From IMG/VR virus record IMGVR_UViG_3300010379_000008, positions 1 to 51,232 of that record: DNA of 51,232 nucleotides; one strand, given 5' to 3'. Below, in pieces: positions 3,753-42,364 of the stretch (positions within the stretch are counted from its first letter, which is position 1; every line of letters starts with the position of its first letter). The notes under the pieces were generated by a model that ran no database searches, was not told the DNA's origin, and was given only the letters and a program-made list of their open reading frames with translations. A program made the translations under genes and the position numbers. This DNA comes from a virus.

Positions 3753-4037
3753 ATGGCCCACATGAAGATCAACGACTGGAAACACCCGGAGCAGCCTTGT
3801 CCTGCTTGCGGCGAGGAGATTGTAGGCGCCTGGTCGCAAGGCGATCGCGCCCCTCGCGAAGGGGTTCCAGTTGTTTGCGTTCATTGCGCCGCGCTATTGG
3901 TCTTCGGTCCGGCCATGGTCCTCCGAAGAATCACGCAGGCGGATGTAGCCCGCTACCGGACCCAGAAAGGTCTTCTCGACGAACTGCGCCGCGCCCAGCT
4001 TGCGGTGAAAATGTTCTTGCGAGCGAAGAGGAATTAA
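3753..4037 (+). CDS. small zinc-ribbon protein, 94 aa
   Basis: Two Cys pairs, CPACGEE near residue 18 and CVHCAAL near residue 45, form a likely zinc ribbon. A helical basic C-terminus (RRITQADVARYR, LRRAQLAVKMFLRAKRN) follows. Such small ribbons often act in nucleic-acid or protein contacts, but no specific role can be assigned. ATG 3753 gives a natural N-terminus; a longer frame from 3723 overlaps the previous gene. The upstream pseudogene at 3102-3332 is a broken copy of this gene, evidence of local tandem duplication. It is the last rightward gene of the left block and converges on the leftward late genes. Confidence 0.7.
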   Translation: MAHMKINDWKHPEQPCPACGEEIVGAWSQGDRAPREGVPVVCVHCAALLVFGPAMVLRRITQADVARYRTQKGLLDELRRAQLAVKMFLRAKRN

Positions 4038-4060
4038 AACAGGCATCGTGCCGGGAAACC

Positions 4061-4213
4061 CTACGGCCGCCGGTTGCAGTGATAGGAGCAGTTACCCCAG
4101 CGGCATTTCTTGCCGGCCAGCCGGCGTTCGAGGCAGGTGATCAAGCGTTGCAGCCGCTCGCGCTTCTCACGCAGCCGGCACAGCTTTTTGTAGAGCCGGG
4201 CCTCGGTGACCAT
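4061..4213 (-). CDS. small Cys-rich coiled-coil protein, 50 aa
   Basis: Below usual length cut-offs but convincing in composition. It begins MVTEARLYKKLCRLREKRER, a continuous amphipathic basic helix, and ends with a Cys/His cluster (KKCRWGNCSYHCNRRP) holding three Cys and one His spaced like a small metal knuckle. It reads leftward, converges with the zinc-ribbon gene, and may be the last gene of the late transcript. The ribosome-binding site is weak (GAGGG two bases from ATG). Confidence 0.5.
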   Translation of the reverse strand: MVTEARLYKKLCRLREKRERLQRLITCLERRLAGKKCRWGNCSYHCNRRP

Positions 4214-4322
4214 GTCCCTCGCCCCTCGAAGAAGTAGACAGTAGGCAGTATAGAGTAAACGGCCCTGGCTTGCTGTCTGCTCTTGCCTGACCTCTCGCCC
4301 CTAGCCCCTATTCCCTATTCCC
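4214..4322. repeat. composite type B and type A repeat
   Basis: Inverse B heptamers, then an A pair (AGTAGACAGTAGGCAGTATA / GCTTGCTGTCTGCTC), then inverse B heptamers that also encode the last residues and the stop codon of the XRE gene. Confidence 0.85.
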
Positions 4323-4757
4323 TACCTGATTGCCGATCCACAAGATCTCGACGCCGACCTCGAGCACGCCGGCCAGCTTGACGAGCGTGCCGATGTGCGG
4401 GTTCGTGAGCTCGCCGATCTCCAGCCGTTCGAGCGTGCGCCGATGGACCAGCGCTTTCGCCGCCAGCTCGCGCTGGGAGAGGCCCAGGCGCTTGCGCAGC
4501 ACGACCAGCCGCGCCGGGAAACCGAGCGGCAAAATCCCCAGGGGCCGGATCTGCACGGTCTTGCGGCGCAGCAGGCTGCCGTTTTTGCCGCTGATCGTGT
4601 GATCGAGCTGGATGGCGCGGGAATCGTCGTCCTCGATCGGCGGCGACGGGAAGATAGGCGAGCCGCGGCGGGCGCGCTGGGCATACAAACGCCGCGCCTC
4701 CGGAGAGGCCGGCAGCGGCGCCGGAGGTTCGTCGCGAGTAATCACGGTCAAAAGCAT
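4308..4757 (-). CDS. XRE-family helix-turn-helix protein
   Basis: 149 aa. Residues about 80-140 form an XRE/Cro-CI type helix-turn-helix domain: VLRKRLGLSQRELAAKA gives helices 1-2, VHRRTLERLEIGE the recognition helix, and NPHIGTLVKLAGVLEV the fourth helix typical of the family. The N-terminal 70 residues are Pro/Arg-rich and not recognised. The last six residues (QVGNRE) and the stop are supplied by type B heptamers, so the native C-terminus may have been altered. It is the only obvious regulator at the distal end of the late region. Target unknown; toxin-antitoxin or repressor roles are both possible. Confidence 0.75.
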   Translation of the reverse strand: MLLTVITRDEPPAPLPASPEARRLYAQRARRGSPIFPSPPIEDDDSRAIQLDHTISGKNGSLLRRKTVQIRPLGILPLGFPARLVVLRKRLGLSQRELAAKALVHRRTLERLEIGELTNPHIGTLVKLAGVLEVGVEILWIGNQVGNRE

Positions 4758-4769
4758 ACGCGAAAGGAG

Positions 4770-4875
4770 GGGATAGTGGATAGTGGCTGGTGGTGAGTGG
4801 CGAGAGGACCCAGACCCAAAGCCCGGCGTAACGAGCGCCAGCTCTTCTCTCGCCGCTCACCACTAACCATTGCTC
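4770..4875. repeat. type C heptamer inverted repeat
   Basis: AGTGGATAGTGGCTGGTGGT on the left and the inverse (CTCACCACTAACCATTGCTC) on the right; a core of about 40 bases lies between. Confidence 0.8.
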
Positions 4876-4876
4876 G

Positions 4877-5176
4877 CTACACCTTCGTGCTCACGAGCAG
4901 GCTGCGGATCGATTCGAGCATATCGCCGCCGACCGTTTGCACGAGAAACTGCAAGAGGTAAATGGCCCCGTCGGTACCACCGCTCAGGCGGACGGTTACC
5001 TGCGTGCCCACGACCGCGATGGCGCCGATCGTGAGGGCGTTATCGCCCTGGAAGATGGTGACCGTGGGGGCGGGGGATGCGGCCAACTGATCGCCGGCCA
5101 CGATCTGGCTGCGGGCCGCGAAGTCGCAGGCGAAGGTTTCGACCTCGGCGGGTTTCTTTTTGAGCATGTCGGCCAT
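4877..5176 (-). CDS. small beta-rich virion protein, possibly fibre/tail adaptor-like
   Basis: 99 aa. After a short basic N-terminus (MADMLKKKPAEVE) the sequence is a run of beta strands (TVTIFQGDNALTIGAIAVV, TQVTVRLSGGTDGAIYLLQF) ending in a hydrophobic strand. Small beta-sandwich proteins of this length and pattern (GGTDG-x-YLL) occur as phage fibre/tail adaptor proteins near the end of tail modules; the assignment is by resemblance only. It directly follows the 20-repeat protein in the same direction. Confidence 0.5.
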   Translation of the reverse strand: MADMLKKKPAEVETFACDFAARSQIVAGDQLAASPAPTVTIFQGDNALTIGAIAVVGTQVTVRLSGGTDGAIYLLQFLVQTVGGDMLESIRSLLVSTKV

Positions 5177-5193
5177 GCGAACCTCGGCTCGGG

Positions 5194-5252
5194 GGAGTAG
5201 ACAGTAGACAGTAAACGGCCGTTGTTTGCTGCCTACTGTCTACTGTCTAGTT
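5194..5252. repeat. type A heptamer inverted repeat
   Basis: AGTAGACAGTAGACAGTAAA and TTTGCTGCCTACTGTCTACT with a short loop, in the 81-base gap between two late genes. Confidence 0.85.
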
Positions 5253-5257
5253 CCTGC

Positions 5258-7564
5258 TCACACGTTTTCCCACACCAACGGGTAATTGGGCTCCGTCCAC
5301 ACCAGGGGATAGTTTGGATCCACCCAGATCTGCGTGATCTGAATGCCGGGCGTGGCCATGTAGTCGGGCGGCAACAGGCCCACCCAGTACGCGGCCGCCG
5401 GGGCGCGGCGCGCGTAGCGCGGCTGGACTTCCAGGTAGGCCCAGAGCCGCGGGGCGAACTCCTCGTCGAAGCCCTGGACCGTGATCGTGTAGGCCGCCGG
5501 CACACTGCGCGGCGCCGCCGGAGTGCGGGCCGGCAAGCTCTGGGGCGCCGGCAAGAGCAGATCGCCGATCTGCACGCTGACATCGTGCCAGAAGGCCGCG
5601 CCGGCCGGCCGCGGTTTGGCGCGGGTCTGGTCGGGCAGTAGCCGGCCGCTCATCTGCGGCTCGTCGTGGATGGCGAAGGTCGCCAGGATCTGGAACGCCG
5701 CCGCGGCCGGCCGCCGGGGTGCAGGCGCCTGTACCGGCAGACTGATCCAGCCGAAGGGCAGGGGCGGGCCTTCGGGCGTCTGCGTGCGGTTGTCGACCCA
5801 ATAACTCGAGTTGGCAGCCCGCGCCGGCCCCGGGGGCGGTCGCTGCGGCAACTGCAGCACGCCCTGCATCGGCTCCTCGAGCTGACGGGTCACCTCGCGA
5901 GCCCGGTAGGCGCCCTCCGCGGCGCGCGGCTTGGCGGGCGCCCGCTGCGGCAGCATCTGCACCAGGGCGGCCATGGGCTCGTCGTGGATCGGGAACGTGG
6001 CCACGATCTGGAACGCCACCGACCCGGCACGCAGGGACCGCGCCGCTCCCGGCAGGACCTGGGGCGCCGGCAGCAGCAGGTCGCCGATCTGGACGCTGAC
6101 GTCGTGCCAGAAAGCGGTTGCCGCCGGCCGGCTGGCGGGGCGGCCCTTTTCGCTCGAACGGCCGATGCGGATCTCGACGGCCGGCGACTCGCCCAGCAAG
6201 GTGCCCTGCGTGGCATTGCTCACCCAGTAAGCGGCGGAACCCGGACGGCGCGGCGCCGCCGCCTGGCCCGGCAAGGCGGCGCCGGGCAACGGCAGGAATT
6301 CTTCGTCGAGACGGAAGCGGCTGTCGATCCAAAAGACCGAGGCCGCGGGCCGGGGGATTGCCGGCAGCCGTGCCGGCAGCAGCACGCTTTGCGTGTCGTT
6401 TTCATCCTCGATCGAGAGATAGCGCTGGGGAACCCAGTGCACCGCCGTGGCCGGCCGCCGGGCGGCCAGGGCGCGATCGGGAAGGGACGAGCGGTAGGTT
6501 TGCACCTCGTCGCCAATCTCGAACGATTGGCAAACCACGTAGCAGCTCGCCGCGCCGCGCGCGGCAGCCGGCGCCCGTGTTGGATATTGCTGGATGAGGA
6601 CCTGGGGCTCATTGTCGAGGTCGGGCCAGCGGTAATTCACCCAGTAGGCGGAGGCGGCGGAGCGCAGGGCCGAGCGGCCGGGATAGGTCGTATAGGTCTT
6701 ATAGGTCGCATCGGCCGCGAAATTCTCCGGGACGTTGAAAGTGCTGAAGATCCAGTAAGCCTGGCACGCGGCGCGCGCTGGCAGCCGGCCTGGCAGGTTG
6801 GGAACGGCAACGAGCTGCGCCAGGGGTTGCATGTCGTCAGGCACGACGACCCGGCAATAGGTTTCGTAGGCAGAGAAGGCGGCGCGCTGCGGACGCCTGG
6901 CCTGATCGGGCAGCAGTTTGCTGATGAGCAGCTCCGGGGGCTCGCTGATCGCCACGTCCAGCACCACGAAGGTGACCGTGATCCCATAGGCGGTCGCCGC
7001 CGCCCGCGCCGCGGCCGGGGTGCGTTCGGGCAAGAAGCTGGTACGCAGCTCCTCCGCGGTGATATCCGGCACGAGGAACGTCGCCGCGATCTGATAAAGG
7101 ATCGGCGGGCCGCGCAGTGTCTGCGCCGCCGGCAGGGAGACGAAGTGCCTATAGGGCTGCACCTCGTCGGACTCGACGAATTGGGCGCTGGCCTGGTAGG
7201 CCGGGGCGGCGGCCCGAGCGGCAGTCTTGCCGCCCTCGCGACACCCCTGGCCAAGGCGCAGGTTTTCGAACTCGACCGTGATGACGATCTGAAACCAGCA
7301 GGGCACGTCGTATGCCGCCGGCGGCGCCCGTGGGGCAGAGCGCGCCTGATCGGGCAAATAGCGGACGCCCGGCAGGAACTCCTCCTCGATATTGTGAAAA
7401 CGCGGGCCGGCTTCGTACGCCACCGCCGCCGGCCGCATTCCCATGGCACGATCCGGCAGCCGCAGCGTCGAGCCCGGCATCGGCTCATCCTGCACCACGA
7501 ACCCCTGGCTGATGAGCGCCGTGACGCGGGGAGATCCACGGATCGGATTGAGGGAAATGGCCAT
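5258..7564 (-). CDS. large tandem-repeat protein, about 20 units of about 37 aa
   Basis: 768 aa, starting MAISLNPIRG (the frame upstream is repeat DNA). The whole protein is built of about 20 copies of a unit of roughly 35-40 residues: a strand with aromatics (AYW/AFQ/AYE then FxV), an acidic turn (DEE, DEP, IHDEP), a variable loop, then LPxRxPAxxRPAA leading to the next aromatic. Two units share an exact block (FWHDVSVQIGDLLLPAPQ). Such architecture suits an elongated fibre-like or surface-decorating virion protein; this is inference from shape and position downstream of the tail genes. No known repeat family is recognised. One unit carries a type E repeat in frame (about 6681-6712, residues YKTYTTYPG). 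Confidence 0.8.
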   Translation of the reverse strand: MAISLNPIRGSPRVTALISQGFVVQDEPMPGSTLRLPDRAMGMRPAAVAYEAGPRFHNIEEEFLPGVRYLPDQARSAPRAPPAAYDVPCWFQIVITVEFENLRLGQGCREGGKTAARAAAPAYQASAQFVESDEVQPYRHFVSLPAAQTLRGPPILYQIAATFLVPDITAEELRTSFLPERTPAAARAAATAYGITVTFVVLDVAISEPPELLISKLLPDQARRPQRAAFSAYETYCRVVVPDDMQPLAQLVAVPNLPGRLPARAACQAYWIFSTFNVPENFAADATYKTYTTYPGRSALRSAASAYWVNYRWPDLDNEPQVLIQQYPTRAPAAARGAASCYVVCQSFEIGDEVQTYRSSLPDRALAARRPATAVHWVPQRYLSIEDENDTQSVLLPARLPAIPRPAASVFWIDSRFRLDEEFLPLPGAALPGQAAAPRRPGSAAYWVSNATQGTLLGESPAVEIRIGRSSEKGRPASRPAATAFWHDVSVQIGDLLLPAPQVLPGAARSLRAGSVAFQIVATFPIHDEPMAALVQMLPQRAPAKPRAAEGAYRAREVTRQLEEPMQGVLQLPQRPPPGPARAANSSYWVDNRTQTPEGPPLPFGWISLPVQAPAPRRPAAAAFQILATFAIHDEPQMSGRLLPDQTRAKPRPAGAAFWHDVSVQIGDLLLPAPQSLPARTPAAPRSVPAAYTITVQGFDEEFAPRLWAYLEVQPRYARRAPAAAYWVGLLPPDYMATPGIQITQIWVDPNYPLVWTEPNYPLVWENV
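6681..6712. repeat. type E repeat in frame inside the 20-repeat protein
   Basis: GGATAGGTCGTATAGGTCTT and following bases repeat a nine-base GGTCxTATA unit like those at 9768 and 10968. Confidence 0.65.
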
Positions 7565-7567
7565 TGG

Positions 7568-7608
7568 GATAGTGGTTAGGGAATAGTGGCTAGGGGCTAG
7601 GGGGATGA
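7568..7608. repeat. type C and B heptamers
   Basis: AGTGGTTAGGGAATAGTGGC and following AGGGGCTAGGG units directly upstream of the start of the 20-repeat gene, taking the place of a normal ribosome-binding region. Confidence 0.75.
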
Positions 7609-7650
7609 GCTTATCGTACCGTTTCTTGCCCGGAGGGCGCGCGAACGTAG

Positions 7651-29695: not shown

Positions 29696-29810
29696 TAGTG
29701 GCGAGTGGGTAGTCGCGAGTGGCGAGCGAATGCCAGAGCCTTACCGGATCCCGCCCTCTTCTGAATGTCGTTACTCCTGATCACCAGCCACTATTCCCTA
29801 GCCACTACTA
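29696..29810. repeat. type C heptamer inverted repeat
   Basis: AGTGGCGAGTGGGTAGTCGC units and inverse CACTATTCCCTAGCCACTAC with a core of about 50 bases; the right arm ends at the capsid stop. Confidence 0.8.
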
Positions 29811-31181
29811 GCGCCCCGCCAGCACCACGAACGGGCTCAGGGTGCTGGTGCTGTTGACAGGCGTCAACGGGCTTCGCCACCAACATATCGCCGCATTGCG
29901 AATCCAGAATTTGAACGCGCGTTCGTGATTCACGAAGCGGACGTGCACGCTTTCCGCGCTTTCCAGAGGTGCATACGTTCCTTCGAGATACTCACTCCAT
30001 GTGCCCAGGAGGAGATCGCCGGCTGTGCCCAACGTTTGGGCATATTCCGAGAACATGAGCGGTCGCCCCAGGAGGCGGTTGGGGATAGGCCCTTCGACAT
30101 TCGTCTCCCAGATCATGCCCGTACCGGCCACGCCCACGGATTGGTTGAGCAATCCGAGCTGCGGCAGTGTGTCGTGGTTGGCGATCCACATCGCGCGGCC
30201 ATAACCCCAGGAGCGCGACATCATCGTCAGGATGTTTGTCAGCGTGATCGTTTTGGTGGCTTGGCCGTTCTCGGCGGGGGCGGTGACCAAGTATGGATTG
30301 CCGGTGTTGAGGACCCCCTCGAACTCGCCGGCACCGCTGCCGGTCAAACGCTCCTTGATCAGCGCATACTGGAACTGCTCCTTGAAGCCGCGTTCGAGAA
30401 TGGCAATGAACGTGGTCGGACTATCGACCAGCAATTCCTCGGTGGCGTAAGCCAGGCCAAAGAGGGTATGGGCGGCGAGCAGGAGTTGCTCGAGCTGCGT
30501 ACGGCTGGCGGTACCGGCTACGGTTTCCGGGCGGCGCGTGACAGTCAGACCGCCGGCCACGCTGGTCGTGTGGTTTTTGTCGGTGCGTGCGGGGATTGTC
30601 ACCGAAGGCGTGGTCATCGGCACGCGCGTGATCATCGACCCCATGGGATCGTCTTCGGGTGTCAGCGCCAGGAAATCCGGGCTGAAGCCCATGGGGATGA
30701 GGAATGACCCGTAAGCATCGCTGGCCCCGGACGCTTCATCACTGCCGACAGTCAGCAAGGGCTTGAGGCGCGGATCGGCACGATCGGAGTGGAGACCGGC
30801 CTGCATGACGCAACCGAGGAATTCGCGCGGAGTTCTGAAGCCGCGACGCTTTTCCGCTTCATGGTCGATGGGCTGAGCCGCAACCACAAGCTGCGTGCCG
30901 GCAGGAGGGTCGGCATCGGTCCTACGAGGAAGTGGCGTGCGCTCCGCCTCGGCGATGCGGCGGCGGTTGGCGTCCATGTCGGCCTTGAGGCGCTGCCGTT
31001 CTTCGGCGCGGGTGATCTTGTCGTTTTCCCGGTCGATGGCGGCCAGCACGGCCTTGCGGCTGGTCTGCAGCCTGTCGTGTTCGGCGAGCTGCTCGGCGGT
31101 GAGCTCCGGGTTGAGCAGGAGCTTGTCGATTGTGGCGTCGATCTCTTCGAGGCGGGTATACAGCTTCTCGAGGGTTTCCAT
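29808..31181 (-). CDS. major capsid protein, HK97 fold
   Basis: 457 aa from ATG 31181 (METLEKLYTRLEE), behind GGAGACGAG. The N-terminal 120 residues are a coiled-coil delta/scaffold domain (KAVLAAIDRENDKITRAEER, RLKADMDANRRRIAEAE) that is normally cut off by the prohead protease. The HK97 domain follows, with DAYGSFLIPMGFSPDFLALT, VPMTTPSVTIPARTDKNHTT, FKEQFQYALIKERLTGSGAG and LGRPLMFSEYAQTLGTAGDL, matching E-loop, A-domain and P-domain signatures of HK97-type capsids. Positioned after the protease and GroES genes. Confidence 0.92.
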   Translation of the reverse strand: METLEKLYTRLEEIDATIDKLLLNPELTAEQLAEHDRLQTSRKAVLAAIDRENDKITRAEERQRLKADMDANRRRIAEAERTPLPRRTDADPPAGTQLVVAAQPIDHEAEKRRGFRTPREFLGCVMQAGLHSDRADPRLKPLLTVGSDEASGASDAYGSFLIPMGFSPDFLALTPEDDPMGSMITRVPMTTPSVTIPARTDKNHTTSVAGGLTVTRRPETVAGTASRTQLEQLLLAAHTLFGLAYATEELLVDSPTTFIAILERGFKEQFQYALIKERLTGSGAGEFEGVLNTGNPYLVTAPAENGQATKTITLTNILTMMSRSWGYGRAMWIANHDTLPQLGLLNQSVGVAGTGMIWETNVEGPIPNRLLGRPLMFSEYAQTLGTAGDLLLGTWSEYLEGTYAPLESAESVHVRFVNHERAFKFWIRNAAICWWRSPLTPVNSTSTLSPFVVLAGR

Positions 31182-31511
31182 CGGCTCGTCTCCGCGGCCG
31201 ATGGACAGGAAGGGGGCATGTGCCATCGGCCAGCTCATGAAGAAGTGGCCAGTGGCTAGTGGTCAGTGGCGAGACAACTTCTCAGCACTACGCACTATTC
31301 ACTATCCACTACGAGTGGTCCGAGCAGCCACGCCGAAAGCTGAAGGCAGTCGGGCAGGTCTACTGTGCCGCGCGAGCTGAAGGCTCGAACGTCGAGATCG
31401 AGTGTACAGGGGACGGACGGGAGTGATTTGGAGTGCGGCGCTTTGTCGCCGCTTTTGTTTTTGGTTCAGAGAAACAAAAGCGGCGGTATAGCCGCCGCAC
31501 TCCAAAGAAGT
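31182..31511. repeat. 330-base gap: type C element and M palindrome
   Basis: C units at 31243-31316, then unlabelled DNA to 31426, then the M palindrome. No gene is seen; the upstream part of the open frame (MSWPMAHAPFLS...) belongs to the C element's flank. Confidence 0.7.
31427..31506. repeat. type M three-hairpin palindrome
   Basis: TTTGGAGTGCGGCG and CGCCGCACTCCAAA are perfect outer arms of 14 bases. Inner pairs CGCCGCTTTTGTTT / AAACAAAAGCGGCG and two small GC hairpins (GCGGCGCTTTGTCGCCGC, GCGGCGGTATAGCCGCCGC) make a cruciform-like fold of 80 bases. Confidence 0.9.
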
Positions 31512-32645: not shown

Positions 32646-32708
32646 AAGTAGACAGTAGACAGTAGACGGCGGATCGGGCCCGTTTGCTGTCTACTGTCTA
32701 CTCTCTAC
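32646..32708. repeat. type A heptamer inverted repeat
   Basis: AAGTAGACAGTAGACAGTAG and inverse TTTGCTGTCTACTGTCTACT; the right arm meets the groES stop. Confidence 0.88.
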
Positions 32709-32946
32709 TTTTGGGCAGGTAGCGGAAGCCGCCTTCCTTGTCGAACACGACCTGGGCGTCGTCGTCGTGCAGGGAGCGGCAAACGGCCTTGATATCGTCG
32801 ATGGTGACTTCGTCGCCGACGGCGAGCACCTCGCCGCGTTTGGGCTTTTCCTTGGCCTTGTCCGGCAGCAGGATGCCGCCGGGGGTTTTCTCCTGAGATT
32901 CCGAACGTCGGACCAGCACGCGATCGGACAGGGGTCGAATCTTCAT
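32698..32946 (-). CDS. groES: phage-encoded GroES-type co-chaperonin, shortened
   Basis: 82 aa; GroES is normally about 95. The N-terminal half is a textbook match: [20 protein letters not shown], the mobile-loop [17 protein letters not shown] and VLAVGDEV. The C-terminal half diverges ([20 protein letters not shown]) and the usual final strands are missing. In T4 a phage GroES (gp31) lets GroEL fold the capsid protein. Here the gene lies between the S49 prohead protease and the capsid gene, which supports that role; the truncated C-terminus is odd. Start overlaps the previous stop (ATGA). Confidence 0.85.
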
Positions 32947-33221
32947 GGACTTATCTCCTTGAGCGGCGAAACAGATGCCAGAGGCTGCGGGATGACGCCC
33001 AGTTTTACGCCTGGCGGGAGGATGATTAAAGGTACCGATGCCAGTGCCGTGCCCCGATGGATCGCATTCCATTCTGCGCGGAGATTTGCCTTCTCCTCAC
33101 GAGTCATGCGACGCTCAAGCTGCAGGACCAGCCCGACCGGCGGTTTATCGGGCAACTCATGCAGAGTACCCAAGACAGCCGTCAAGCCAAGAGCCGCTTT
33201 GATGGCCTCACGGCGGTTCAT
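32943..33221 (-). CDS. small exported-type protein with RAEW motif, 92 aa
   Basis: N-terminus [18 protein letters not shown] resembles a twin-arginine-type signal with a hydrophobic stretch; a short mature part follows. The sequence [14 protein letters not shown] is shared, as RAEW plus HG/RG, with the portal (residues 239-252) and with the gene at 37881-38291, so the segment recurs in three proteins of this element. C-terminal ends overlap the groES ATG by four bases. Function unknown. Confidence 0.55.
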
Positions 33222-33264: not shown

Positions 33265-34179
33265 CTACAGGCTACGGCACTTTCTATCTTTTGCGACTTG
33301 ATGCCGTAAGCGGAGAACCTCGACGCTAGCCCCCTTCGCACTCGCCCCGCGCCCCTCGCCCCTATTCCCTCCCGTGAGGCGTTCCATCAGATCGCCCATG
33401 GTCATGATCTTGTCAATCATGCCGGCGGACAGGGCCTCGTCCCCTTTGAGCAGGCGGCCGTTGCCATATTTGCTGCGTACGTCGGACGGAGGCACGCCGC
33501 GGTTGCGGGCGACGGCCTTGACGAATTTCTCGTAAACGCCTTTGACGACCTCCTGGAGGCGCTCGTCGTCGTCGTCGGAGAGGGGCTCCAGGTCGTTGAA
33601 CTCGGCCTTGTTCTTGGGGACCTTGGCGATCGTGCATTTGACGCCGGCCTCGGCGTAGGCGCTGGACCAATCTTCATGCACGGCGTAGACGCCGACCGAG
33701 CCGACGTCGGCACTGGGGCTGGCGCAGACCTGGGAGGCGCAGGAGCCGAGCCAGTAAGCGGCCGAGGCCATGCAACTATTGGCGATGGCGTGCACGGGCT
33801 TGACGCTGCGGGCCGCGAAGATTTGGTCGCCCAGCTCCTGGACGCCGTAGACCTCGCCGCCGGGGGAATCGACGTCGAGCACGATGGCGCCGCAGTCCTT
33901 GCTGGCGAGGGCCATATGCAGGGCCTGAGCGGTGTCCTCGGTGGAGCAACCGCCGAACAGCCAGCCCCAGAGGGACATGCGCTGTTCGATCACGCCGCAG
34001 ATCGGGATGACGGCAACCTTGCCGGAGGCGAGGCGGAGCTGCTTGGCGGCGGCCTCCACGCGGGCCTTGTCGATGTCGGCCTGGCAGGGGACCGGGTTCA
34101 TGTTGCGCAGGCGCAAGGCGGCGCCGGCCAGGAACTGGTGATCGGCTAGCCAGAGTTTGGTGGTCGTTGCCAGGGACAT
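33265..34179 (-). CDS. S49-family prohead protease (SppA/lambda gpC-like)
   Basis: 304 aa from ATG 34179 (MSLATTTKLWLADHQFLAGA); the longer frame upstream is G-element DNA. S49 features: VAVIPICGVIEQRM, IVLDVDSPGGEVYGVQELGD and the nucleophile region ANSCMASAAYWLGSCASQVC, followed by ADVGSVGVYAVHEDWSSAY. The catalytic Ser is expected in MASAAYW and the Lys in the IAKVPKNK region, as in signal peptide peptidase A. Phage S49 proteases mature the capsid by removing the scaffold domain of the capsid protein. Adjacent portal and capsid genes support this. Confidence 0.9.
   Translation of the reverse strand: MSLATTTKLWLADHQFLAGAALRLRNMNPVPCQADIDKARVEAAAKQLRLASGKVAVIPICGVIEQRMSLWGWLFGGCSTEDTAQALHMALASKDCGAIVLDVDSPGGEVYGVQELGDQIFAARSVKPVHAIANSCMASAAYWLGSCASQVCASPSADVGSVGVYAVHEDWSSAYAEAGVKCTIAKVPKNKAEFNDLEPLSDDDDERLQEVVKGVYEKFVKAVARNRGVPPSDVRSKYGNGRLLKGDEALSAGMIDKIMTMGDLMERLTGGNRGEGRGASAKGASVEVLRLRHQVAKDRKCRSL
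33337..33374. repeat. type B heptamers in the C-terminal codons of the prohead protease
   Basis: CTCGCCCCGCGCCCCTCGCC and following CCTATTCCCTCC; in frame they encode GGNRGEGRGASAKG. Confidence 0.7.
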
Positions 34180-34196
34180 GAGCGGCTCCTTTTTCC

Positions 34197-34346
34197 CTCG
34201 TTCCAAGGCTCTGCCTTGGAACGCACTGCCTTGCAGGCTCTGCCTGCCATTCATGAACGCCGTTGCCCGACAATGCACCCACCTTGGGAAAACGAGGCGG
34301 AGCCTCGCATGCATTGCGTTCCCAGGCAGAGCCTGGGAACGAGGGG
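34197..34346. repeat. type G palindromes, four in a row
   Basis: CGTTCCAAGGCTCTGCCTTG (34199-), GCAGGCTCTGCCTGC, CGAGGCGGAGCCTCG (34294-34308) and CGTTCCCAGGCAGAGCCTGG (34317-34341): each is a perfect or near-perfect hairpin with AGA/TCT-type loops. They fill the gap between portal and protease genes. Confidence 0.88.
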
Positions 34347-34351
34347 CTGTG

Positions 34352-36796
34352 CTAGCACTGCCCTTCCAAGATTTTCTCCGCCCACTCGGCGGCCCGTTGC
34401 GTGGGCCAGCTTTCCAGTTTGGCGGCGAATTGGGCGGGGGTGTCTCGATTGTACATGTCTCGCAGGAGCCTCATCGACTCACCGGTGATCGCCGCGGCAA
34501 TGCCCTGCGTGTCGACCACCTGGAAATACTGGCGCAGCAGCAGGGCGGGCGCCTCCAGGGCGGTAAACAGGTTGGCCCGGTGGCCCGGATAGAAGCCGGC
34601 TATCCAGGCTTCGAGGTCCTTCCCCTTAGCTGCCGCCGCCCGCGCTGCCTGTTTTGCTTCTTTCCCGAACATGCGGCCCAGCACATCTCCAAGGACCGCC
34701 TGAACTGCCTGACGTTGAGCGTCGGTAGTGGTGAGTGGCGAGTGGCGAGTGGCGAGAGCTGCATTGGGGGCTGGCTTGCCATCATTATCTCCGCCGCTAC
34801 TATTGTCACCGCTGTTTCCATTGCTTTTGCCATTCCTCTCTCCGTTTGCTCCTGTTCCTTTTTTGCTCCCATCGCCTGCGTCATCATCCTCATCGTCGTC
34901 GTCTTCGGGATCCACGGCGCGGCGGCCGATCATGATCGCGAAGTGCTTGTACTGCTTCTTCCGCCAATCCTCGTCGTGCCAGCCCTCGTTCCATCTCTTG
35001 TAGTCAATCACCATCTGGCCGGGGGCCTGGTCGGCGCCCTCGCCTTCGAGCACGTTGTCGATCGAGGGATCCTGGACCTGCACGAACCCAGGCCAGACCG
35101 CTGCCACGGCGACGTAATGCCCGTAGTTAAAGGAGGCCTGTTTCGAGGGCACGCCGTATTCCTGGATGGGGCAGATGCAGGCCTTCCCTTGCCGCCAGGC
35201 TGCCCGCAGATCGTCGATGGTGAGATCGTGGCAGGCGGTCACAGCCAGGCCGAGCTCGGTGAAGTACTCCACGATGCGCATCGGCTCGGTGCTGTGCTCG
35301 ACGGTGGTGCCGAGGACGGTTTTCCATTCTTCCAAGGTTTTCGGGCCGACCTTGAAGAGACCGCCGACCGACATGGAGGCGGCGGCGCCGCAACTGTAAT
35401 TGTCCTTCTGGCGGACGTCGGAGTAGGGGAGGGCCTGGTCGTTGTCCTTGAGATCGCCCCATGCGAGGGATAGGACCGATGGGTCCGATGGGACCGATGC
35501 GCCGGCCGGCGCGGGGAGAAGGTTCTGGCCCTGGCCACTCACCACTATTCCCTGGCCACTACCCTGCACCATGCGCTCGACGGTGGTCCAGTTGCCGGGG
35601 ACGAAGTGCACATCGCCGAGCTCGGCGGGGAGGACCTCGCGGTTTTCCAGGCGGCGGACCTCGTTGATCGACAGGATGCCGATGCCCAGGGCGATCTGGT
35701 AGCCCTTCATTCTGGTTTCGAAATCGCCGCGGAGCAGGCCGGTGAGCTCGTGCTCGAAGAAATAAGTCTCGCGTTCCTTGGGCGTGAGCAGCTTCCAGTT
35801 GCAATGCTGCTCCTTGCGGATGAGCCAGGGCATGAGGCCGTAGACGACGAACTCGAGGCTCTGCATCTCGATCGAGGCGTAGCTGGCCTTGTCGAGCAAT
35901 CCAGCAAAATGAGCTGGAAGTTTGTAAAAACGGCAGAAGATTTCCTCGACGTTGAGCTTGCGCGATTGCAGATATTGGGCGGCTTCGTTGGGAACTGAGA
36001 TCGGTGTATACTCGGCTTCTGGCGGGAGAAGGATGACCTCGCCAGAATCAGGACTTCCATGGACTTCGCGCCACTCTGCCCGAAAGCTTGCTCTGGCATC
36101 TCGATCCTTCATCCCGGGAATCTTCAACACACCGCGGCTGGTGGCTCCGGAACTGAAGAATGTGGCGGCGTGCCGGGCCATGCCCAACCCGGTGCCGATG
36201 TCTTCGCGGGCATAGGGGATGCAGCCCTTGCCCCACATGCCCTCTTCGCTGATGCAGCCGGGGATGTGCAGGATCTCGTCGGCGCGCATCGGCGTTTCCG
36301 ACCCATCGTTGTTACGGATGAGGTAGGGAAATTCGGCCGAAACCTCCGTGTCGCCTTGCTTGCGCGGCTTGACGCGGCTGGGGTGGATGGGGTGCAATTC
36401 CGCTAATTGGCCTCGTCTATCTCTCACAATTTCCGCGAATCCGTTGCCCCAATTCACCGTATGTGCGGCCCTACTTTCCCAGAACGGCATCGCCGTCATC
36501 GACTGGTTGGGCTGGCAGCTCACCACGTGATGAGTCTGGTGATCCATGGCGATGCGCTTGCCGCCGTCGGGCAGCCGCTCGTAAAGGTTGAAAGGCAGCA
36601 TCGAGGGGATTTCGGACAGGATGCGCGTGGCGCACCAGACGGCGGCATAGGTCAATGCCAGGCCATGATCGACGACGACGCCGGCCTGGGTGCGCATCTG
36701 GCCGCCCCACCAGTAGCGCGAGAAGCCCGAGCCCATGGGCTGCCAGTCGGCGTAGAAGGCTTTGGGGCGTGGCCGGCCGTAGATCAGATCGAGCAT
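34352..36796 (-). CDS. portal protein with an internal C39-type peptidase domain
   Basis: 814 aa, roughly twice a normal HK97-type portal. Residues 1-410 are the portal domain: VCATRILSEIPSMLPFNLYE type helix region, FRAEWREVHGSPDSGEVILL, QYLQSRKLNVEEIFCRFYKL and KASYASIEMQSLEFVVYGLM. At 412-445 come type C and E repeats in frame. Residues 460-630 look like a C39-family papain-fold domain: Q463, Cys469 in NYSCGAAAS, His560 in NYGHYVAVA and Asp576 in VQDPS. An acidic linker (DPEDDDDEDDD) with I and C repeats follows (about 631-690), then a helical C-terminus (LGDVLGRMFGKEAKQA) typical of portal ends. The C39 insertion in a portal is not something I know; it may cut the scaffold or act during DNA entry. 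That is inference. Confidence 0.88.
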   Translation of the reverse strand: MLDLIYGRPRPKAFYADWQPMGSGFSRYWWGGQMRTQAGVVVDHGLALTYAAVWCATRILSEIPSMLPFNLYERLPDGGKRIAMDHQTHHVVSCQPNQSMTAMPFWESRAAHTVNWGNGFAEIVRDRRGQLAELHPIHPSRVKPRKQGDTEVSAEFPYLIRNNDGSETPMRADEILHIPGCISEEGMWGKGCIPYAREDIGTGLGMARHAATFFSSGATSRGVLKIPGMKDRDARASFRAEWREVHGSPDSGEVILLPPEAEYTPISVPNEAAQYLQSRKLNVEEIFCRFYKLPAHFAGLLDKASYASIEMQSLEFVVYGLMPWLIRKEQHCNWKLLTPKERETYFFEHELTGLLRGDFETRMKGYQIALGIGILSINEVRRLENREVLPAELGDVHFVPGNWTTVERMVQGSGQGIVVSGQGQNLLPAPAGASVPSDPSVLSLAWGDLKDNDQALPYSDVRQKDNYSCGAAASMSVGGLFKVGPKTLEEWKTVLGTTVEHSTEPMRIVEYFTELGLAVTACHDLTIDDLRAAWRQGKACICPIQEYGVPSKQASFNYGHYVAVAAVWPGFVQVQDPSIDNVLEGEGADQAPGQMVIDYKRWNEGWHDEDWRKKQYKHFAIMIGRRAVDPEDDDDEDDDAGDGSKKGTGANGERNGKSNGNSGDNSSGGDNDGKPAPNAALATRHSPLTTTDAQRQAVQAVLGDVLGRMFGKEAKQAARAAAAKGKDLEAWIAGFYPGHRANLFTALEAPALLLRQYFQVVDTQGIAAAITGESMRLLRDMYNRDTPAQFAAKLESWPTQRAAEWAEKILEGQC
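34724..34762. repeat. type C heptamers in frame inside the portal
   Basis: AGTGGTGAGTGGCGAGTGGC units encode ALATRHSPLTTT. Confidence 0.85.
34838..34868. repeat. type I repeat in frame inside the portal
   Basis: CTCTCCGTTTGCTCCTGTTC encodes part of the GTGANGER stretch; same motif at 37311, 37852 and 38290. Confidence 0.7.
35464..35568. repeat. type E and C repeats in frame at the portal/C39 junction
   Basis: GGACCGATGGGTCCGATGGG (E-like, encodes ASVPSDPSV) and CACTCACCACTATTCCCTGG (C inverse, encodes QGIVVSGQG), separating portal and C39 domains. Confidence 0.85.
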
Positions 36797-37851: not shown

Positions 37852-37955
37852 CGTTTCCTCCGTTTCAATCAGGGAGTCGCTTATACGCTGGGCCTGTTCG
37901 GGAGCGACCGTGATGATGCCGACGCGCATGTCTCCGTTTGCTCCGGTTTGACAAC
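37852..37955. repeat. type I inverse repeats
   Basis: CTCCGTTTCCTCCGTTTCAA at 37852 and TGTCTCCGTTTGCTCCGGTT at 37928; they also encode the C-terminal residues of the leftward gene at 37881. Confidence 0.65.
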
Positions 37956-38291
37956 GATGATCTGGCCGCTGTCCGGACCACGCTGAAGCGCTTCCCATTC
38001 GGCGCGAAACTTCGCCTCGGCCTTTGCATCGGACGTTCGGACGAAGGGCCTCAGTTCGCTCGGCCAGAGGATGCGGATCCGGAATCGACCTACCTTGAGG
38101 AATTTCAGGTAGCCATAGCGCTCAGAGAAGCAGGGCGGATTTCGCCGTCCATCCGTGAAGTGCAGCCCAAGGCCAAGGATGCGGAACCAAAAGAAGCCGT
38201 GGCCGGCCATGGCAGACAGAAACGGGAGCTGCAGCATGATGCTGCCATTGCGGCGACTGAGTCCCCAAGAAATAAAGTCCAGCATCTTCAC
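37881..38291 (-). CDS. hypothetical protein with portal-like RAEW segment, 136 aa
   Basis: Starts MKMLDFISWGLSRRNGSIML. A hydrophobic/aromatic N-terminal part (LPFLSAMAGHGFFWFRILG) may be membrane-associated. The middle is basic (FLKVGRFRIRILWPSELRP). Residues EAKFRAEWEALQRGPDSGQI closely match the portal segment SFRAEWREVHGSPDSGEVI, so part of the protein is a portal-derived or shared module. The C-terminal residues (TETCASASSRS) overlap an I repeat. Function unknown. Confidence 0.55.
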   Translation of the reverse strand: MKMLDFISWGLSRRNGSIMLQLPFLSAMAGHGFFWFRILGLGLHFTDGRRNPPCFSERYGYLKFLKVGRFRIRILWPSELRPFVRTSDAKAEAKFRAEWEALQRGPDSGQIIVVKPEQTETCASASSRSLPNRPSV

Positions 38292-38952: not shown

Positions 38953-38992
38953 CTAACCACTCGCCACTACCCACTAGCCACTACCCACTACT
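38953..38992. repeat. inverse type C heptamers
   Basis: CTAACCACTCGCCACTACCC and ACTAGCCACTACCCAC up to the terminase stop. Confidence 0.85.
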
Positions 38993-40614
38993 CAGTCCCG
39001 CAGCATGCCCGGCTCGTACCACTCGTCGCGGCGCGTCTTGCCGATGGCCTGGCCGATGGCCATGGCTTCGGCAACGATGCCGTCGATCTTGTCGGCGCTC
39101 TTTTTGCGGGCGGGCATCACGCAGCCTAGCCCATCGGAGCGGACGACGGTGTTGCCGGCCATCCAGCGGTTGACCGGATTGCCGCCGTGGCGGAGCTGGC
39201 CGGTCTTGAGGAGCCGGCTCATCATCACCAGCGGCTCGTTGAAGTTGGCGATGGATTGGAGGACCTTCTCCATCGTGAAGCCATCGGACTGCAGCTCCTG
39301 GGCGATCTGGCCGGCGTTCCACGGGTCGTAGCCGACCGACTTGACGTTGAAGCGGTCGCCGATGGCGCGGACGTCGCGGCGGACCTGGGCATAGTCGAGC
39401 TCGTCGCCTTCGGTCTTCTTGATCAGGCCTTGCTGAATCCAGTCGTAATAGGTGCGGCGATTGGTGCGTTCGCGCTCCTGGTTGACGTCCTCGGGGACCC
39501 AGCACCAGAGCAGCAAGGTATAGCCGCCGTCTTCATCGGGGAAGGCGAGCGCGAAGCACGTCATGTCGAGCGTATTGGCGAGGTCGAGGCCGCCATAGCA
39601 GTCGCGGTCGTATAGAGTGTCGACAACAACGACGAAATGGCTACAGGCGTCCCATTGCTGCATGTCGAAGTAACCGACGATCGCATCTTGCCAGAGATTC
39701 AGGCGGAGCTGCCGGAAGGCGGCCCGGTCGCTGGGCGTGCCGTTCTTGGCCTCTTTGAAGTCGGCCCGGAACTTGTCCAGAGAGATCGTGTGGCCGAGCG
39801 AAGGATTGGCCTTCCGCCATTGCTTCTCGTCTTCCCAGAGATCGTTGCCATCAGCTTCGGCAATGTAGACGAGGAGGCGGGTGTCGTCGGTGTTGCTGCC
39901 GTCGCGCACGCCCTTGGCGTAGAGGTAGCGCTCGTAACCGAGGCTGGTCTTGTCGTTGCCGGCGGTCGAGATCTCGAAGAAGATCGACTGACGGCGGGCG
40001 GCGCCGGAATAGCGCAGCGTGTCATACAGTTCGTGGCTACAGCAATGCAGCTCGTCGATCACGGCGAAATGAGCATTGATGCCGTGGCCGGTCTTGCGGG
40101 CCTCGGCCGAGAGAACCGTATAGAAACTGGCTTTCTGCTCGAAGACGATCCGCTTGACGCTGGCGATGACCTGCAGATACTTGAGAAGGGCGGGCGATTG
40201 GTTGACCATGTTCCGGACGGCCCGGAAGACGATGCCGGCCTGGTTGCGGTCGCGGGCGGCGCCGTAGATTTCCGCGGCCGCCTCGCCGTCGGCCAGGAGC
40301 ATGTACAGGATGAGCATGGCCGCGAGCGTGCTCTTGCCGTTTTTCTTCGGGATCCAGATCGATGCTTTGGAAAAGCGGCGGCTGCCGGCGGCATCTTTCC
40401 AGCCATAGAGCGGGCCGACGACGTGCTGCCATTCCCAGTCGAGCAGCTCGAATGGCTTTCCCGCAAAGTCGCCTTCGGCGTGGCGGCAGAATTTGGCGGA
40501 GAACTGGCGGACGCGGTCGGCAGCTTGGAGATCGAAGCGGCAGCCGGCATCGACGGCGCGCTCGTCGGCGGCGGAGCGGATCCATTGCTTGGTGATCTTG
40601 TCGATGCGGCTCAT
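38992..40614 (-). CDS. terminase large subunit
   Basis: 540 aa, HK97/Terminase_1 type. The ATPase half shows a Walker A of the terminase variety (WIPKKNGKSTLAAM, residues about 87-100), Walker B FAVIDELH (182-189), and the nuclease half the acidic triad candidates GGLDLANTLDMT, GYDPWNAG and KKSADKIDGIVAEA. Cuts and translocates genome concatemers into proheads through the portal. Small-subunit and portal genes flank it with one or more small genes between. Order and length are typical. Confidence 0.93.
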   Translation of the reverse strand: MSRIDKITKQWIRSAADERAVDAGCRFDLQAADRVRQFSAKFCRHAEGDFAGKPFELLDWEWQHVVGPLYGWKDAAGSRRFSKASIWIPKKNGKSTLAAMLILYMLLADGEAAAEIYGAARDRNQAGIVFRAVRNMVNQSPALLKYLQVIASVKRIVFEQKASFYTVLSAEARKTGHGINAHFAVIDELHCCSHELYDTLRYSGAARRQSIFFEISTAGNDKTSLGYERYLYAKGVRDGSNTDDTRLLVYIAEADGNDLWEDEKQWRKANPSLGHTISLDKFRADFKEAKNGTPSDRAAFRQLRLNLWQDAIVGYFDMQQWDACSHFVVVVDTLYDRDCYGGLDLANTLDMTCFALAFPDEDGGYTLLLWCWVPEDVNQERERTNRRTYYDWIQQGLIKKTEGDELDYAQVRRDVRAIGDRFNVKSVGYDPWNAGQIAQELQSDGFTMEKVLQSIANFNEPLVMMSRLLKTGQLRHGGNPVNRWMAGNTVVRSDGLGCVMPARKKSADKIDGIVAEAMAIGQAIGKTRRDEWYEPGMLRD

Positions 40615-41653: not shown

Positions 41654-42364
41654 CTACCTCTGCACCTTCAGCCTGCGCAGCACGTCACCATAATACTCCT
41701 TTTCCCACTCGTTGCGGCCACTTCCATCGCCCCCGCGCCCCTCCAGTCGACAGGTGCGGATTTGGTTTCGTTCCCAGCGCCCGCAGCCCAACATAGCGTA
41801 GACGGGATGCACCGGCAGATCGTTCGCAGCCAAATAGCCAAACACATCCGCCTCGGTCCACCAACCCAACGGCGCGCACGCATTCGGGCTCGCGAGTCCG
41901 TATTTGCGCATGCGGATCTTACGGCCCCCAGATTCCTGCGCTCGGATACCGCTGACATATCGAGGGCCAAACTCATCTGCTGCCTGGGCGAATCCAGCCT
42001 CCAGGCTTCCCGTGGCGTGCCAGGCATAATGCCCCTCGCGCAGATGCATGATAATTTCCCGATACGTCATTGGCCATCGGGAAAGGAAGGCGTCCCGGAC
42101 CGATTTACAGTCCGGGTTGTACAGTGGGATTTGCTTGACCCAGACCAACGGAATCACCAGTCCTGACTGGTATATCAAGTGAGCCAGAGCAACCGAGTCT
42201 TTTCCCCAGCTCACGCTGGCATAGTTCGGGTTGAATTCTCGGATCGCGGCCAATGCCTTGGATGGCTTGTCGCCGAGCATCTTGCCGCGAGCGAGGTCGG
42301 CCCCTTCAAGCTCCAGCCATAGTTCTAAATCTTCTGGTCGGTGTCTCTGCGATGCAATCAGCAT
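41654..42364 (-). CDS. cysH: CysH-like PAPS-reductase-family protein of the type IV-B cassette
   Basis: 236 aa. The PP-loop ATP-binding motif SWGKDSVALAHL is at residues 52-63, followed by IPLVWVKQIPLYNPDCKSVR and a Cys/Arg-rich C-terminus (LGCGRWERNQIRTC). This matches the CysH/PAPS-reductase family, adenylate-transfer enzymes that normally act on sulphate assimilation. Type IV-B loci are known to carry a cysH-like gene whose job in them is unsettled; nothing here suggests sulphate metabolism nearby. Its start overlaps the csf3 stop (ATGCTGA), so it is translated as part of the cassette. Confidence 0.88.
   Translation of the reverse strand: MLIASQRHRPEDLELWLELEGADLARGKMLGDKPSKALAAIREFNPNYASVSWGKDSVALAHLIYQSGLVIPLVWVKQIPLYNPDCKSVRDAFLSRWPMTYREIIMHLREGHYAWHATGSLEAGFAQAADEFGPRYVSGIRAQESGGRKIRMRKYGLASPNACAPLGWWTEADVFGYLAANDLPVHPVYAMLGCGRWERNQIRTCRLEGRGGDGSGRNEWEKEYYGDVLRRLKVQR

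Follow-up and report, generated by a model that had tools for sequence, protein, structure and literature searches.

The portal gene of the window, i.e., the whole 51,232-nucleotide stretch of viral DNA analysed here, encodes an 814-aa protein in which an HK97-type portal core is followed by what is confidently predicted to be a C39-subtype papain-like domain (residues ~451-630). Similar domains were found on portals, MuF proteins and other head proteins of uncultured viruses. On balance it is rather probable that they form a mobile C39 family of phage heads that has not been described before, attaches to proteins of the inner portal vertex and supplies a second proteolytic activity of the head, used in assembly or released at infection. 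All conclusions are based on sequence and prediction.

The Portal Core and Its Surroundings

The open reading frame is exactly as originally given with respect to coordinates and length, and it lies in a head gene module with the following features.

34352..36796 (-), portal-C39 fusion gene, 814 aa, ATG start (ORF, family matches and full-length homologue)
35582..36796 (-), HK97-type portal core, residues 1-405 (PF04860 at residues 52-385, E=2.5e-83; end-to-end alignment with phage portals of 408-457 aa)
33265..34314 (-), S49-type head maturation protease, separate gene (PF01343, E=4.5e-28; phrog_53, E=1.5e-73)
32698-33072 (-), GroES-like co-chaperonin, between the head protease and capsid genes (phrog_3188, E=5e-13)
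29808..31238 (-), major capsid protein, HK97 fold family (PF05065, E=2e-25)
38992..40614 (-), terminase large subunit (PF20441, E=1.4e-43; PF03354, E=1.1e-28)
41654-42364 (-), PAPS-reductase-like gene beside the terminase (phrog_2302, E=4e-21)

The protein is identified as an HK97-type portal by profile cut-offs (PF04860, 280 bits against a curated cut-off of 39; the equivalog TIGR01537 portal_HK97, 197.3 bits against 112) and by the terminase-portal-protease-capsid arrangement, the gene order being TerS, TerL, portal, S49 head protease, GroES-like protein and major capsid protein. The alignment with ordinary portals stops near residue 405, and these relatives end soon after. HK97-type portals (TIGR01537/PF04860) such as that of Streptococcus phage Javan159 are homologous to the core and 36-37% identical to it, but at 408-457 aa they are without a counterpart of residues 406-814, which comprise a linker, the C39 domain, an acidic linker and a C-terminal helical bundle. 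The C39 domain had been described as lying inside the portal. The fusion stands, but the domain is appended after the core and does not interrupt the portal fold. A full-length homologue, 85% identical overall, is encoded at L003:5001-7409.

Elsewhere in the window, the small ORF 37881-38291 (-) contains a 48-aa segment with 40% identity to portal residues 231-273 (pairwise E=9e-8) and is possibly a portal fragment, as judged from its sequence. A similar-looking portal motif at 32943-33221 was checked and found no support.

Predicted Fold and Active Site of the C39 Domain

The part of the protein beyond the core contains the following features.

34907..35446 (-), predicted C39/papain-fold peptidase domain, residues ~451-630 (profile, structure model, Foldseek, tetrad, dN/dS)
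35408..35410 (-), Q463, predicted oxyanion-hole Gln, invariant (33/33)
35390..35392 (-), C469, predicted catalytic Cys, invariant (33/33), with an intein directly before the equivalent Cys in L118
35117..35119 (-), H560, predicted catalytic His, invariant (33/33)
35069..35071 (-), D576, predicted catalytic Asp, invariant (33/33)
34727..34906 (-), acidic, low-complexity linker, residues 631-690 (14 D/E against 6 K/R; pLDDT <50 over most of it)
34355..34726 (-), C-terminal helical bundle, residues 691-814 (predicted long helices, pLDDT ~84-96)

When the whole window protein was searched, its sole C39-type Pfam match was DUF3335 'Peptidase_C39 like' (PF11814, E=4.6e-4), at 20.2 bits and thus under the cut-off of 25, whereas the C39 domain searched alone reached 25.6 bits. 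The PF13529 cut-off (24 bits) is exceeded by the relatives L105, L115, L116, L117, L130, L131, L133, L135, and L136. No ABC-transporter match was found in the window protein by Pfam/TIGR profile search, the partner of the C39 domain being the portal. A first structure model built from 3 sequences had a pLDDT of 53, and its best PDB matches were already PeiR and ComA. In the model that replaced it (residues 406-814, 18 sequences) pLDDT exceeds 90 for the greater part of the C39 core; here a helix begins with the Cys and a strand bears the His, which is the arrangement of papain folds. The top Foldseek match of the modelled domain is the PCAT double-glycine protease 6mpz (E=1.9e-6, TM(target) 0.83, rmsd 2.4), followed by PeiR 8z4h and ComA 3k8u. 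Structure prediction, which had been proposed as a check, hence gave the C39 fold and no different one. The four residues first named as its signature (Q463, C469, H560, and D576) are located precisely, and the Gln-Cys-His-Asp tetrad is kept in this order throughout the family, at identities down to ~22%, so that no homologue has lost the catalytic Cys or His. All 33 sequences also share a Trp-x-Asp motif close to where the domain ends.

The linkers on both sides of the C39 domain are predicted to be disordered. Linker 631-690 is 66% identical to that of L003, compared to 85% for the full protein. No conserved cleavage motif was found in the linkers, and GG dipeptides near the C39 domain are inconsistent among relatives, for which reason self-cleavage of the linker at a double glycine was dropped as a candidate. 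The C-terminal bundle aligns in L105 and L116; as sole query it matched neither viral contigs nor phages. Scattered across the window are dozens of repeats built of 7-base units (CTCGCCCCTAGCCCCT.. and AGTAGACAGTAGACAG..), mostly in apparently intergenic positions. The copies at 35531-35562 and 34723-34759 are within the portal gene, in the linkers flanking the C39 domain, where the L003 protein differs.

A Family of Head-Associated C39 Domains in Uncultured Viruses

Iterative searches of viral contigs resulted in 26 head-associated members on separate contigs (the window and 25 contigs of uncultured viruses) and 7 standalone C39 proteins. The initial impression that no standard portal has this architecture is correct for sequenced phages, where the family is absent, but the architecture recurs in uncultured viruses, and the suggested search for other portals with the domain found it in three portal families. 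Classed by Pfam or PHROG profiles unless stated otherwise, the carriers are distributed as follows.

PF04860 portals: window, L003, L099, L105, L115, L116, L117, L129, L147
PF05136 lambda-type portals: L122, L135
PF06074 Mu-type portal: L134
PF04233 MuF proteins: L130, L131, L133, L136, L144; L138 with a match below cut-off
MuF-type proteins, read by eye only: L118, L140, L145
Portal-C39-MuF fusion: L129
C39 at the N-terminus, the other half matching head-maturation/head-protein profiles at marginal to moderate E-values: L113
Ferritin-like domain on the C39 carrier: L123
Large multi-domain C39 proteins: L119, L142
C39 as a separate gene adjoining a putative MuF gene: L120

From its sequence the L113 carrier is likely a prohead protease. 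In a tree of the 33 C39 sequences (midpoint root, L113 being a long branch) the 26 head-associated domains are split from the 7 standalone ones by a branch with 100/98 support. The carrier types are interleaved along the tree, with 13 changes where the least possible is 9; the C39 module has repeatedly changed its carrier, which may be a portal, a MuF protein, a large multi-domain head protein or, in one case, a likely prohead protease. Some relatives share a polypeptide with HNH, kinase-like or ParB-like domains, and many MuF carriers hold effector-like HNH and kinase domains. The window protein has matches to portal and C39 only, plus the predicted helical bundle, and no recognisable effector passenger. 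A hydrophobic stretch common to different head proteins, GVPxPLPGASLxTAxPVIAxAE, was noticed by eye in L115, L120 (portal), and L130 and is possibly a membrane-interacting module.

Huge phages (LR756511, 595 kb; an IMG/VR virus of 430 kb) encode standalone C39 proteins of a related branch with the same tetrad and W-x-D motif, but these are single-domain proteins of ~170-200 aa without fusion to head proteins. Two of them (L005:5929-6516 and L095:3917-4519) begin with a short stretch, F-x-x-W-[LF]-E, which may be somewhat like the capsid-targeting leaders of T4; the standalone proteins of huge phages may also be head proteins.

The head-associated family was found in none of 50,697 phage genome records and in none of 72,556 plasmids. 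When 84,980 species genomes were searched with the C39 domain alone, no relative was obtained. Scanning the same genomes with a portal alignment gave 80 loci, nearly all in Firmicutes, and C39 motifs were present in 0/77 of the portals read out. A C39 domain profile found two weak partial matches only in 399 genomes of one further phylum. A match in L091 that seemed to reach into the C39 domain was rejected, as this ORF encodes an ordinary portal of 418 aa. Among viral structure models, endolysins and solo peptidases were matched, and no portal was significantly matched through C39. In the open-access literature no description of a portal-C39 fusion was found, and one may exist elsewhere. The family is passed over at Pfam thresholds. 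The Thermoanaerobacter thermocopriae contig L054 encodes a 662-aa HK97-type portal ORF joined to an apparent Clp-type head protease, which is possibly another portal-protease fusion and possibly an effect of a frameshift or of assembly.

Conservation and Selection

The C39 domain is under purifying selection. Ratios computed from dN and dS of the nucleotide comparison with L003 are ~0.12 in the C39 domain and ~0.10 in the portal core, and higher in the linkers and the C-terminal bundle. When portals are compared in pairs, identity in C39 exceeds that in the core by at least 9 percentage points in 14 of 15 cases, e.g., 71% against 32% for L099/L115 and 50% against 30% for window/L105; the exception is the near-identical pair window/L003 (93% in C39, 92% in the core). 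This would reflect exchange of the domain between phages, a stronger constraint than on the core, or both. In one comparison the C39 domains of relatives were 40-92% identical to that of the window.

At L118:3957-4805 an intein of ~272 aa (PF14890, E=2.5e-4) interrupts the C39 domain of a MuF-type protein directly ahead of its catalytic Cys, and this Cys would serve as the +1 residue of the intein. Inteins tend to insert at conserved active sites, so the position is evidence, though not proof, that the site is functional. Intein-like insertions were also seen inside MuF domains, beside the C-x-C loop, in L133 (ORF 3933-7481), where the insertion matches PF14890, and in L145 (ORF 4047-7649), where it was recognised by eye only.

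Possible Roles of the Predicted Peptidase

A separate head protease adjoins the portal in every genome checked, S49 in the window and L099 and S78 in L105. Because this gene is encoded alongside, the C39 domain was rejected as the capsid-maturation protease, and the trimming of scaffold originally proposed is, like that of the coat, unlikely in the sense of a maturation protease. The other roles then suggested, on further internal proteins or on the host, may still apply. It is conceivable, with the chances about evenly balanced, that the capsid-facing end of the portal carries a competent C39 peptidase which acts inside the procapsid during assembly or maturation, beside the S49/S78 protease. 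The C-terminal end of the portal would then bear the peptidase together with the helical bundle, and up to twelve copies would surround the inner face of the vertex if the ring is dodecameric, as homology suggests. In SPP1 the MuF protein gp7 enters the procapsid through its binding to the portal (PMC6316719), and the portal C-termini of P22 extend inwards (PMC4992974). The procapsid interior at the portal vertex is the one compartment that the portal C-terminus, MuF proteins and the prohead protease would have in common, and from this we infer that the C39 domain works there. As a second protease next to the canonical S49/S78 enzyme it would cut protein, its targets presumably being proteins of the portal vertex or cargo borne in the head, during assembly or maturation.

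A role in assembly or cargo processing is our first choice, and we would put its chances at about one half. On the other hand, the MuF carriers with HNH and kinase domains also fit delivery to the host. The peptidase could be an injected effector that is packaged with the head, freed by cleavage of its disordered linkers, and carried along with the DNA into the host, where it would cut, e.g., defence or cell-control factors. MuF-linked enzymes have been proposed to be delivered at infection (PMC3482391, PMC5512222, PMC6316719), and both the disordered flanking linkers predicted here and the joining of the domain, in some relatives, to HNH, kinase-like and ParB-like domains would agree with this. 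The domain is however also carried by portals and prohead proteases, which are not known to be ejected, it is uniform and more conserved than its carriers, unlike polymorphic toxins, and its linkers are without a conserved cleavage motif. Release as an effector is consequently placed second, as a somewhat doubtful possibility.

The proposed assembly role is also weakened by the inconsistency of the archetypal double-glycine sites and by fold neighbours that include cell-wall enzymes (PeiR and LysA). A cell-wall endopeptidase aiding DNA entry or lysis, like C39-type endolysins and the archaeal-virus PeiR, would explain why PeiR is among the best structural matches, why some relatives weakly match the endolysin phrog_10051, and why the LysA C39 domain of a Gordonia phage is distantly related to the standalone branch. 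As portals, MuF proteins and head proteases do not meet peptidoglycan, and the head-associated domains form their own clade with none seen in a lysis gene, this is unlikely. C39-like folds elsewhere also act as non-cleaving binding domains, and those of some transporters bind without cutting, so the domain could instead recruit scaffold or cargo to the portal as a peptide- or protein-binding module; the tetrad, not required for binding alone, is nevertheless invariant, and this explanation is a little less likely still. The weak Pfam score in the full protein might point to chance resemblance, a decayed domain or an assembly artefact, an explanation that was rejected as hardly credible given 26 separate contigs, a confident C39 fold, purifying selection and the invariant tetrad.

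Portals are usually treated as passive gateways and motors. As an apparently intact cysteine protease is attached again and again, in many uncultured phages, to portals or to proteins that bind them, it is probable that either proteolysis takes place at the portal vertex or the portal bears an effector. This would have been overlooked because the domain falls under the usual thresholds and does not occur in sequenced phages. The common location across unrelated carriers makes the function testable.

Comparison with Known C39 and MuF-Linked Systems

The C39 domains of PCAT/ComA/NHLM transporters (PF03412; 6mpz and 3k8u) have the same fold (TM(target) 0.83 and 0.78, respectively) and the same Gln-Cys-His-Asp pattern. 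The window domain differs from these in being on a portal and not on an ABC transporter, in an identity of ~13-17% in the structural alignments, and in that no consistent double-glycine site is found near the domains of its family. The pseudomurein endoisopeptidase PeiR (8z4h/8z4n) and the C39-type LysA/endolysin domains are likewise C39-like folds in viral proteins, but these are lysis enzymes, whereas the family described here is carried by proteins of head assembly and is separated in the tree from standalone viral C39 domains.

A parallel in gene organisation is found among enzymes linked to MuF. A papain-like Tox-PL1 domain with an NC-H-DxQ signature, fused to MuF and not to portals, was described by Zhang and colleagues (PMC3482391), and Iyer and colleagues defined 'polyvalent proteins' in which enzymes are fused to portal or MuF, with four peptidase superfamilies (zincin, assemblin-like, DD, and LonC), none of which is papain-like (PMC5512222). 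Both have an enzyme on a portal or MuF protein within the head gene cluster of portal-terminase phages, as do the window and L129, L130, L131, L133, L136, and L144. The several or variable effector domains of polymorphic toxins were not found in the window protein. Judged by sequence, the C39 family appears to fit the polyvalent concept, to which it would add a new peptidase class and three portal families as the main carriers.
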